A stretch of 32,701 bases of DNA from NCBI GenBank assembly GCA_031279255.1, contig JAITIW010000039.1, positions 1 to 32,701 of the forward strand, read 5' to 3'. The stretch comes from Puniceicoccales bacterium. Lineage in GTDB: Bacteria; Verrucomicrobiota; Verrucomicrobiia; Opitutales; JAIRLG01. A model generated the notes under the pieces. The model did no database searches. It was not told the DNA's origin and was given only the letters and a program-made list of their open reading frames with translations. Of this stretch, positions 21,558 through 29,372 are shown in pieces. The number at the start of each line of letters is the position of its first letter. The first letter of the stretch is position 1. A program made the translations under genes and the position numbers.

Positions 21558-23432
21558 TCAATGGCTTTGGGAGTCGATCCAGCGACCGATGGCTTCAATA
21601 GTCCATTCGGAAACGTCATGATCTTCCGATCGGGAGATGACTTGCCTTACTTTTTTCCCCATCAATTCTTTCCCCAAAGGAGATTGATAGGAGAGGATAT
21701 TTTTATCCGGATTGCTATCCCAAGCGCCCAATATGGAATATTCTTCTATTTTTTGTGTTTCGCAGTTCTGCAGTTTAACCGTCGAACCGACAGAAACGGC
21801 TTCTGTACTAGCTTCTTCGAAGTTAATGACCTGGGCATGAGCAAGATCTGTTTCGAGTTGAGCTTTGAGCGCCAGCAGCATCTCTTGATCCTGTCGAGCC
21901 ATCTTGTACTCAGAATTTTCTCGCAAATCGCCCTGTTCTTTAGCGACCTGAATGGCCAGTTTGTTTTCGGGAATTCTGCGCGAAATGAGGTCTTCGTATT
22001 CCTTCCGCTTTATTTCTAGACTTTCCTGCGAAACTTTTAGAGAATTCTGTTCCTCAGCGACTTGCTGGACATCCTTCATGACCAAGCTCTGAATCTGAGG
22101 GAATATCTTGATGAATCGGGCCAGGAGTGATTTCTTGGTCAAAGCATTGAATCCATGGCTCATCCACAACATCTGGGCCACATCGCGGGCTTCTTCCAGA
22201 GATGCGGTAGCCAGTAAATCCTGGATGAGGTTGTAATCCTTACTCAGTAATTCAGCCAAAGGAATGCGTTTATTGCCCGTCATATGGAGGGCCTCGACAT
22301 CAACGGTACGAAAAACAGTCCTTAACAATTCGATACCGATCAGATGTTCATCGATGACATCGGCGAATCGGCGCGCATGGCGATTTTTGAGAATCCAATA
22401 AAGTACAGGAGCTTTTAGAGTATGTTCGCGTAGCCATCGCGCGAAATATCCCGCCACGACCTCGGGGCAGCCGCGTTCTATGAAGAACAGGACGCATTCG
22501 CTGGTAAATTTCCCTGTGCTATTTTTCAATAATTGTGCGCAACGCTCTTCCCATTCATCGGGATAAACGCAGGCTACGAGGTCCAAAAATTGAGAAGTAT
22601 AATGTGGAGGTAATTGTTCTACGATAGAACTTAAATTATGGTTAGCTTCCAACAGGATCGATTTGGCAGAAGGCTCGACAAATTCTGCACCTTCTCCCTG
22701 CATCTGCAGTAAATGATCGCGGATAAAGCAGGCCTGCAGTTTTTTAGCCACAGGAAGTTGTGAATCCTTCGCGATAGCTACTTGCAGAGCGTCGATAAAG
22801 ACCGGAATATGAGGAATCATGTTCTGTCGATGCTCATCGGAGAGGTGGAGAACTTTTTCCAGAACCGCGATTTTGCTTACGGGATCGCGATACAAATCAA
22901 ATTGCTGCAGTAATTCGATAGCGGTATTCATGGGTTCCGCGCATAGGGTAAAAGTATTAACGTTCCCTTCCACGGGATGGATTCTTTCGTCATCGGCTAT
23001 TAATTTCCGAGTACGATTCCACCAACTGCGATAGGTAGCAATACCGATAATGGGCTTAAAATTGCGCTCGATTTCACTGGCGACGATTTCCGTCTGGTGA
23101 TTCTCCTGCATCATCTGTAAAATGACGGTGATCGGATCCTCTTTGATCTGCTTTCGTAATTCATCAGGATCCTGGTAAAAACGGACCAATAGATGTTGGG
23201 GATCGAGAATCTCTAATTTCCGAATACAGAATTCCGGCGTCATGAGATGTTCCTTAGGCCCATCTTCAAAATCGATCACAAAGCGATCGAGTGTCGCATC
23301 ATAGGACTTGATTTTTCCAAATCCCCAGCTCGCATGTAGACAATACGTACCTTCCAACATGCGTTCTAATTTTTCTTTAGAGGATTCTAGTACGGGGTAT
23401 TTCCTCAGTATTAATTCCAATGAATCATCCAT
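21558..23432 (-). CDS. greA: Long GreA-type transcription elongation factor
   Basis: GreA enters the RNA polymerase secondary channel and promotes cleavage of backtracked RNA. The C-terminal ~155 residues of this 624-residue protein form GreA: a coiled coil with the acidic tip AKEQGDLRENSEYK (conserved Asp and Glu) and the globular domain (VSVGSTVKLQN ... YQSPLGKELMGKKV). Residues 1 to about 465 are an added region: an N-terminal part with GTYCLHASWGFGKIKSYD and DGPKEHLMTPEF, then a long helical repeat-like section. Chlamydial GreA has a similar long extension, which supports PVC affiliation. The role of the extension is unknown. A purine-rich GGAACGAAAGAACG precedes the start. Confidence 0.9.
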   Translation of the reverse strand: MDDSLELILRKYPVLESSKEKLERMLEGTYCLHASWGFGKIKSYDATLDRFVIDFEDGPKEHLMTPEFCIRKLEILDPQHLLVRFYQDPDELRKQIKEDPITVILQMMQENHQTEIVASEIERNFKPIIGIATYRSWWNRTRKLIADDERIHPVEGNVNTFTLCAEPMNTAIELLQQFDLYRDPVSKIAVLEKVLHLSDEHRQNMIPHIPVFIDALQVAIAKDSQLPVAKKLQACFIRDHLLQMQGEGAEFVEPSAKSILLEANHNLSSIVEQLPPHYTSQFLDLVACVYPDEWEERCAQLLKNSTGKFTSECVLFFIERGCPEVVAGYFARWLREHTLKAPVLYWILKNRHARRFADVIDEHLIGIELLRTVFRTVDVEALHMTGNKRIPLAELLSKDYNLIQDLLATASLEEARDVAQMLWMSHGFNALTKKSLLARFIKIFPQIQSLVMKDVQQVAEEQNSLKVSQESLEIKRKEYEDLISRRIPENKLAIQVAKEQGDLRENSEYKMARQDQEMLLALKAQLETDLAHAQVINFEEASTEAVSVGSTVKLQNCETQKIEEYSILGAWDSNPDKNILSYQSPLGKELMGKKVRQVISRSEDHDVSEWTIEAIGRWIDSQSH

Positions 23433-24308: not shown

Positions 24309-25223
24309 ATGGACATCCATCTTTTAAAGACTCAAGAGGAAAATAGTTTAATATTTCTCGAGGCCGTGAGGATCGCCGAGGCATCACGCTGTACGACGAT
24401 CATGATCTTTGGGGATGTAATGGCTTCCTCTCCTATTATTCTCGATGAGGTTTTTCGAAAATATAAAACGGTTCTCGTGACGAAACGCGATGTAGCGACG
24501 ATGGACGAGGAAGAGAAAAGCTGTTTTACGCATATTATATCCGTTGCATCTCTGGCGTCTCGGCGTTTTGCCCAATGGCGTAGTGCTGCCATTGTAGGTC
24601 TGACGCATGGGATGTTTTCTCCTGATGAAAAAATCTGCCGGATTTCCGGTTTGGTGGGTAGTAATCGTTTTGATACGTTATCGATCGTCGAGCTCATGAA
24701 TGAGTTCAATTTTGCCATACCTTTGCAAAAGGATTTCTTGCCGAGGGATATTCGTCCAGAAGTTTTTGAACGCGTCCTGTCAATCAGTTCCGATATCGCC
24801 GTGGAGGGCCGAGAAGGTAAGCCGATCGGTTCACTCATCATCCTAGGGGCTATCGAACGCATTCGTCCTTATATACGACCATTGGTCCTCAATCCCTTTC
24901 AGGGGCATGCGGAACAAGATCGCCACATTCTCAATCCATTCATGGCAGAAATTATTAAGGAATTTTCGGCCATCGATGGGGCATTCGTGGTTCGCGGCGA
25001 TGGTGCCATCGAAGCGGCGGGGATGATGATTCAGGCTCCTCATAACGAGCGTATTTCTTTGCCACCTGGTCTTGGAACACGGCATATGGCCGCTGCCAAT
25101 ATTTCTGCCATTGCCGACTGCATTGCTGTTGCTGTCTCGCAGAGCACGCGACACGTCACGCTTTTCCATCACGGCGAGATGTTGGCATTATCGGAACGAA
25201 GTTTCCTAAAGGCGGAAATTTAG
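24309..25223 (+). CDS. Diadenylate cyclase (DisA_N/DAC domain)
   Basis: The C-terminal half (about 160-290) is a DAC domain, which joins two ATP into cyclic di-AMP. The key motifs are GREGKPIGSLIILG (167-180), RGDGAIEAAG (229-238) and LGTRHMAAANISA (255-267). In the usual RHR motif the third residue is here Met. The N-terminal ~140 residues (FLEAVRIAEASRCTTIMIFG and following) look like an alpha/beta domain similar to the pyruvate-kinase C-terminal fold seen in archaeal DacZ-type enzymes. There is no transmembrane part, so this is not CdaA, and no HhH DNA-binding tail, so not full DisA. c-di-AMP usually controls potassium, osmolytes and wall stress. The 304-residue start at 24309 has no clear ribosome binding site. 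Confidence 0.88.
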   Translation: MDIHLLKTQEENSLIFLEAVRIAEASRCTTIMIFGDVMASSPIILDEVFRKYKTVLVTKRDVATMDEEEKSCFTHIISVASLASRRFAQWRSAAIVGLTHGMFSPDEKICRISGLVGSNRFDTLSIVELMNEFNFAIPLQKDFLPRDIRPEVFERVLSISSDIAVEGREGKPIGSLIILGAIERIRPYIRPLVLNPFQGHAEQDRHILNPFMAEIIKEFSAIDGAFVVRGDGAIEAAGMMIQAPHNERISLPPGLGTRHMAAANISAIADCIAVAVSQSTRHVTLFHHGEMLALSERSFLKAEI

Positions 25224-28565: not shown

Positions 28566-29372
28566 ATGTTTTTCTACAAGTACACGGCAATTGGGAATGA
28601 TTATTTGATTTTGGATGCACGTCATGATTCCTTACCGGCCAAGGATGTCGTAGTTTGCGTCTGCGATCGGCATTTTGGGATTGGTTCCGATGGCTTACTC
28701 TTTGGCGGTATCGAACAGGACGGATGCTTTCCCTTGAGGATTTTCAACCCTGATGGCTCAGAAGCGGAAAAAAGTGGAAATGGGATTCGTATTTTTGCAC
28801 AATTCCTATGGGATAAAAATTATGCTACAGGAACTTCCTTGACCGTACGCGTCCCGGCAGGGGAGGTATCCTGTTGCCGAGCTGAAGGCGATTCCGATAT
28901 TACGACAGCCATGGGAATCCCCCAATGGAATTCACCGCAGCTTCCTTCGCCCTGTGATCAGCGAATAGTGCTCGATGGGTGTTCGATGGAAATCCATGCC
29001 GTCTCCATGGGAAATCCTCATGCCGTTGTGTGTTTCCCTTCCGCCAATCGGGAAGATATTCTGCGTTATGGTCCATTGCTGGAATGCCATCCTCTTTTCC
29101 CGGAAAGAACCAATGTTCAGATCATCCATGTGCGCGATTCGCAGTATATCGACATGCAGATTTGGGAACGCGGCGTAGGGTATACCCTTGCTTCTGGTTC
29201 CAGCGCATGTGCCGCTTTTGCTGTTGCCCGTAAATTAGGTCTTTGCGATCCAGCTGCGGTGGTACAGATGCCAGGCGGTATTTTAAAAATGCGACAGGAA
29301 GCCGATGCTTGTATTTACCAAACGGGACCTGTGACTCGTATCGCGGATTGCCAATGGTATGATTCCCTATAG
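28566..29372 (+). CDS. dapF: DapF-like protein with both catalytic cysteines replaced by serine
   Basis: By fold and motifs this is a diaminopimelate epimerase family protein, which makes meso-DAP for lysine and peptidoglycan. The start at 28566 gives MFFYKYTAIGNDYLILD, the normal DapF N terminus; a second ATG is three bases upstream, and the longer open frame from 28437 lies over the divergent MFS start. The product is 268 residues, the usual length. NPDGSEAEKSGNGIR has Ser70 where DapF has its first catalytic Cys (usually xCGNGIR), and ERGVGYTLASGSSACAA has Ser210 where the second Cys is expected (usually ACGxGACA). Other ligand residues (Asn11, GNG, the NPH segment at 150-152, ERG) are kept. 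It may belong to a serine-type branch, a different activity (as Cys-to-Ser changes do in proline racemase relatives), or be catalytically weak. Confidence 0.85.
   Translation: MFFYKYTAIGNDYLILDARHDSLPAKDVVVCVCDRHFGIGSDGLLFGGIEQDGCFPLRIFNPDGSEAEKSGNGIRIFAQFLWDKNYATGTSLTVRVPAGEVSCCRAEGDSDITTAMGIPQWNSPQLPSPCDQRIVLDGCSMEIHAVSMGNPHAVVCFPSANREDILRYGPLLECHPLFPERTNVQIIHVRDSQYIDMQIWERGVGYTLASGSSACAAFAVARKLGLCDPAAVVQMPGGILKMRQEADACIYQTGPVTRIADCQWYDSL

Follow-up and report, generated by a model that had tools for sequence, protein, structure and literature searches.

DapF homologues with serine at both catalytic cysteine positions: a widespread subfamily of putative diaminopimelate epimerases

The window analysed here, a stretch of 32,701 nucleotides from the draft genome of a Puniceicoccales bacterium, encodes a DapF homologue that carries serine at both catalytic cysteine positions. 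From our point of view, this protein is probably a diaminopimelate (DAP) epimerase of an old and widespread Ser/Ser subfamily, in which the serine pair carries out the proton transfer. For the broader proposition, namely that a deep, multi-phylum DapF subfamily epimerises DAP via a serine pair without a catalytic thiol and, in many bacteria, serves both peptidoglycan and lysine as their sole epimerase, we consider the chances to be about even. Both views build on the directly observed sequence, fold, conserved pocket, clade and genome context of the Ser/Ser proteins, from which we infer the epimerase activity and that the serines themselves act as base and acid.

The window gene and its active site

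The reading frame is open throughout, and its start corresponds to the aligned Met at which two same-genus relatives begin (Table 1). Profile searches with Pfam- and TIGRFAM-type models matched DapF families only: the protein scored 213.8 bits against the DapF equivalog TIGR00652, thereby passing the cut-off of 114.65, and 163.7 bits against PF01678, and it did not reach the cut-off of NF038284, the model for bifunctional DapF (58.6 vs. 350 bits). In a phmmer search against the PDB, Ser70 and Ser210 align to the catalytic cysteines of solved DapFs, meaning that the cysteine pair by which a DapF is usually recognised is replaced at both positions. The claim of the earlier note that serine occupies both sites within an intact frame is hence confirmed by the PDB alignment, the codons and the 90 best or strongly matching members of the order (Opitutales in GTDB) that were read, a degree of retention far above what chance would give.

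Table 1. Positions of the dapF homologue and of selected residues within the window.
Feature	Position	Strand	Remarks
dapF homologue, Ser/Ser subfamily, 268 aa	28566..29372	+	profile matches, AlphaFold2 model
Lys69, subfamily marker	28770..28772	+	K in 93% of Ser/Ser; M or Q in Cys/Cys
Ser70 (codon AGT, EKSGNGIR)	28773..28775	+	corresponds to H. influenzae Cys73, Anabaena Cys75; begins helix 71-83 of the model
Glu201-Arg202, invariant DAP-binding pair	29166..29171	+	corresponds to H. influenzae Glu208-Arg209
Tyr206, subfamily marker	29181..29183	+	Y/F/W in 97% of Ser/Ser; E in 81% of Cys/Cys
Ser210 (codon TCT, LASGSSACAA)	29193..29195	+	corresponds to H. influenzae Cys217, Anabaena Cys224; begins helix 211-223 of the model
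Ser213, subfamily marker	29202..29204	+	S in 99% of Ser/Ser; G in all Cys/Cys

Both serines are retained in two same-genus relatives with 67% identity, and between the same-genus genomes G025 and G058 the gene is under purifying selection (NG86; dN 0.075, dS 0.33, dN/dS about 0.2). Given that the window genome is a draft of just 0.885 Mb, one could imagine that the serines stem from a sequencing error, from gene decay or from a pseudogene confined to this lineage with its reduced genome, but the intact frame, the dN/dS ratio between the relatives, and the occurrence of identical residues across many phyla, isolates included, as well as in 90/90 order members refute this explanation and leave it practically no probability. 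A selenocysteine or frameshift reading was likewise ruled out, as there is no in-frame stop. An in-frame TGA does occur in a distant Cys-type dapF, that of genome G300 (L089:1-774), at a site other than the two catalytic positions. Within genus g123, to which G300 belongs, many genomes gave no match to DapF.

The AlphaFold2 model of the window protein (pLDDT 96.3, pTM 0.93) predicts a DapF fold in which the residues at the catalytic positions sit at helix starts, with helices 71-83 and 211-223 beginning directly after Ser70 and Ser210. Its top structural matches in the PDB are DapFs, with a TM score of 0.92 to 9mro from Anabaena, and the C73S structure 2q9h also matches. Proline racemase folds rank below every DapF entry, and since DapF families are also the only ones matched by sequence, we rejected the assignment as a dehydratase of the proline racemase superfamily.

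Within the pocket, N11, N61, G71, N72, N150, H152, N183, E201, R202 and G211 are invariant in a set of over 90 diverse Ser/Ser proteins as well as in 60 additional members of the order. The subfamily thereby keeps, without variation, every DAP-binding residue of DapF (N11, N64, N75, N157, N190, E208 and R209 in H. influenzae numbering; PMC8225329). The diaminobutyrate racemase PddB has lost the distal-carboxylate residues (PMC8225329), whereas the Ser/Ser group keeps exactly these, which we count in favour of DAP as the substrate.

Consistent differences between the Ser/Ser and Cys/Cys proteins are found at positions 6, 57, 69, 70, 76, 185, 199, 206, 210, 213 and 235. Ser213, three residues after Ser210, takes the place of Gly227 of Anabaena DapF, which adjoins Cys224 and whose amide hydrogen-bonds the catalytic sulphur (PMC12039745). 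Two further candidates for a catalytic base were considered, namely (i) Lys69, which was set aside because I or L is found in about 7% of the Ser/Ser proteins; and (ii) Tyr206, which was rejected because about 10% of them have F or W there.

Distribution and phylogeny of the Ser/Ser subfamily

An order-wide search yielded a DapF match in 224 of 273 genomes. The best 30 of these 224 matches and 60 more strong matches from other genomes were read, and Ser/Ser was found in all of them (30/30 and 60/60). Order members with weak matches (families f8 and f25; genera g83 and g35) carry a Cys/Cys DapF, which is also what genomes without the Ser/Ser protein usually have in its place. In genomes G064, G209 and G568 both types were read, with the Cys copy of G209 being possibly a contamination; G371 has two DapFs, of which the one read is Ser/Ser. 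Family f28 (L056:1-3741, L057:1-3687 and L058:1-3726) has a mixed Ser/Cys DapF that is nested inside the Ser/Ser part of the tree and possibly represents a return to Cys at the second position.

Beyond the order, a scan of GTDB genomes was run with an alignment as the query, a single-protein query having given no match, and revealed 80 loci, 44 of them Ser/Ser and 36 Cys/Cys. The Ser/Ser loci include isolates (Pseudomonas sp. 21, Ewingella americana, Tangfeifania diversioriginum, Lacrimispora xylanisolvens, Clostridium sp. LS and Anaeromicropila populeti) as well as metagenome-assembled genomes assigned to Dadabacteria, Nitrospira, Sulfurihydrogenibium, Rokubacteria, SAR324, Spirochaetes, Chloroflexi and others.

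A phylogeny of the Ser/Ser homologues, as proposed in the earlier note, was calculated twice without the motif columns; as both trees are unrooted, they give no order of the Ser and Cys states. In the tree of 117 sequences, a single branch (SH-aLRT 99) separates the Cys/Cys proteins from all others, the Ser/Cys proteins are nested within Ser/Ser, and loci named Opitutia or Opitutae group with the order members, which points to an Opitutia-like verrucomicrobial origin. The tree of 82 sequences, from which long-branched rows including Ser/Cys were left out, shows the same split with a bootstrap/SH-aLRT support of 100/100. The Ser/Ser DapF is hence a deep clade across many phyla and not a quirk of one lineage. 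From the three options of the earlier note (a serine-type DapF used by this lineage, another reaction, or another DAP route), the first is the best supported, although "this lineage" proved too narrow for a clade of such breadth.

A literature search covering few subscription papers returned no report of a Ser/Ser DapF and none with an assay or proven activity, so that the branch, although widespread, has apparently gone unremarked so far. Regarding the possibility raised before that Ser/Ser is common in proven DapF enzymes, it is thus common among DapF homologues, but none with proven activity was found.

Pathway context and alternative functions

The window genome is a draft of 885 kb in 68 contigs with 93.6% completeness. 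Searching it for a second dapF and for dapL or ddh, as the earlier note had suggested, gave a mixed outcome: no second DapF was found in this draft and no Ddh by profile search, while an aminotransferase has the LL-DAP aminotransferase model NF004937 as its best match (530.2 bits, under the cut-off of 585). LysA was not found in the three same-genus genomes searched, including that of the window. These absences from the window genome could be gaps in the draft. MurE is present with 468 bits and a DNPR motif, which we take to be the mark of a DAP-adding MurE. The genome consequently combines a putative LL-DAP source with a putative meso-DAP user, no bypass having been found in the draft, and as LysA was not found in the genus, meso-DAP is likely used there for peptidoglycan. 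Another DAP route is unsupported, since neither a second DapF nor Ddh was found in the draft; the product of the DapL-like aminotransferase would be LL-DAP, and an epimerase would still be needed to obtain meso-DAP.

There is no dap operon in the window neighbourhood of the gene. The window also encodes a protein of 624 aa (21558-23432, - strand) with a GreA/GreB domain at its end and a long N-terminal part without Pfam match, and a DisA_N-type (DAC) diadenylate cyclase domain (24309-25223, + strand; PF02457, 74.9 bits) with a weak match to the DacZ_P sensor.

Among 30 sampled genomes that carry a Ser/Ser DapF, it is the sole DapF in 20, with lysA alongside in some, and Ddh exceeded the cut-off in only 3 of the 57 genomes searched. 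Full-scoring LysA and MurE, with no Ddh found, occur in the sole-Ser/Ser genomes G605 (Sulfurihydrogenibium), G607, G610, G611 (the Tangfeifania isolate), G619 and G626 (Nitrospira). A lysA homologue adjoins the Ser/Ser dapF in Bacteroidales; in Spirochaetes the gene is followed by alr, an M20 amidohydrolase gene and a lysA homologue; and in Lacrimispora (L129:4961-6840) the D-Ala-D-Ala ligase gene ddl abuts it. Being the sole DapF in many bacteria, the one of the window included, the Ser/Ser form probably does the same job as the canonical enzyme by a different acid-base chemistry. Both types coexist in, for example, Pseudomonas sp. 21, Ewingella and Lacrimispora, whose genome with the ddl neighbour also has Ddh, and in such genomes the Ser/Ser copy may do something else.

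This coexistence would fit with the idea that DAP, or an amino acid resembling it, is turned over by the Ser/Ser protein in another reaction, such as a one-sided deprotonation with elimination, as in the Ser/Thr 3-hydroxyproline dehydratases, or the racemisation of another substrate. Within the proline racemase superfamily, loss of Cys goes along with dehydratases (the Ser/Thr t3HypD; PMC4113996), and Cys-to-Ser racemase mutants retain elimination on halogenated substrates (PMC8142540). However, the DAP-binding residues show no variation within the Ser/Ser group, many genomes with Ser/Ser as the only DapF have LysA and/or MurE with Ddh not found, and the genes next to it (lysA, alr or ddl) are not catabolic ones. 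Weakened by the pocket and the lysA neighbours, this second option of the earlier note appears unlikely to us.

A further alternative is that the protein is catalytically dead and binds DAP as a regulator or partner, in the way that E. coli DapF partners with RppH, while the cells build their walls with LL-DAP. Cys-to-Ser exchange cripples the studied DapFs, and, according to PMC5303756, subdivision 4 Verrucomicrobia have long been described as lacking DAP. The same paper reports for Lacunisphaera and Opitutus terrae low DAP together with ornithine by GC/MS, a method blind to stereochemistry, and no DL-DAP by TLC, and we count these data on related Opitutaceae against the epimerase reading. 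The TLC result may nevertheless reflect low sensitivity, as argued in the paper itself, the entire catalytic pocket is retained over many phyla, and LysA-bearing lineages with only a Ser/Ser DapF would additionally need a LysA that accepts LL-DAP. We hence regard a dead protein as distinctly improbable.

The question also arises whether the Ser/Ser DapF additionally racemises glutamate to provide D-Glu for MurD, as reported for the DapF of Chlamydia trachomatis. PVC bacteria are often devoid of MurI, and DapF has been proposed as a substitute (PMC5885031). In G000, G025 and G058, the genomes searched from the window's genus, which possess MurE, no MurI, no protein of the Asp/Glu racemase family (PF01177) and no PF01063 D-amino-acid transaminase was found, making the window protein similar to the bifunctional enzyme in being the DapF of a PVC bacterium without MurI. 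Yet the chlamydial DapF retains and requires both cysteines, for which reason descent from a chlamydial lineage was also rejected, the window protein stays far under the NF038284 cut-off, and D-Glu could come from the host or another enzyme. As MurI or PF01063 proteins coexist with a Ser/Ser DapF elsewhere in the order, glutamate racemisation is not a general role of the subfamily, and a dual role of the window protein seems very unlikely.

Putative mechanism and comparison with known enzymes

If the Ser/Ser protein acts as a DAP epimerase, LL-DAP from the aminotransferase route would be bound between the two domains by the usual DapF residues, and domain closure would exclude water. The alpha proton would then be removed by Ser70, where one helix begins, and a proton would be returned from the other face by Ser210, where the opposite helix begins, yielding meso-DAP for MurE. 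Ser213, Tyr206 and Lys69 near the serines may re-tune the site for oxygen acid/base chemistry. The direction is assigned by position from Anabaena DapF, where Cys75 captures the LL inhibitor and Cys224 the D,L inhibitor (PMC12039745).

That serine can function in such a site is indicated by an enzyme of the same fold, a natural Ser/Cys 4-hydroxyproline epimerase, which is active (PMC4113996). Like this enzyme and the Ser/Thr t3HypD, the window protein has a DapF-like fold with Ser replacing catalytic Cys, but those two belong to another family and act on other substrates, and the active epimerase has one Cys left. Counted against a serine mechanism are the Cys-to-Ser mutants of DapF (PMC12039745) and HisR (PMC11602996), which are employed because the change hinders catalysis, and the acidity of a serine hydroxyl, which is far lower than that of a thiol.

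Compared to canonical DapF (TIGR00652, PF01678; H. influenzae 1gqz, Anabaena 9mro), the window protein shares the fold, the DAP-binding residues, the His152/Glu201 pair and the pathway context, and differs by both serines, nine further diagnostic positions and its separate clade. To our knowledge, every studied DapF relative has two reactive cysteines. The DapF-related racemases PddB and HisR/CntK, and presumably also DcsC, keep Cys/Cys, unlike the subfamily of the window. The thiol-thiolate pair is the textbook account of how DapF deprotonates the alpha-carbon, and DapF inhibitors have been designed around it. If the Ser/Ser form truly is the sole epimerase of its hosts, this account would change, bacteria insensitive to thiol-directed DapF inhibitors would be predicted, and the natural sequences would reveal through which surrounding changes oxygen succeeds, in contrast to simple Cys-to-Ser mutants. 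Should it instead be inactive, LL-DAP must be what these bacteria use; this, too, would be notable and relevant to the puzzle posed by the cell wall of subdivision 4 Verrucomicrobia.
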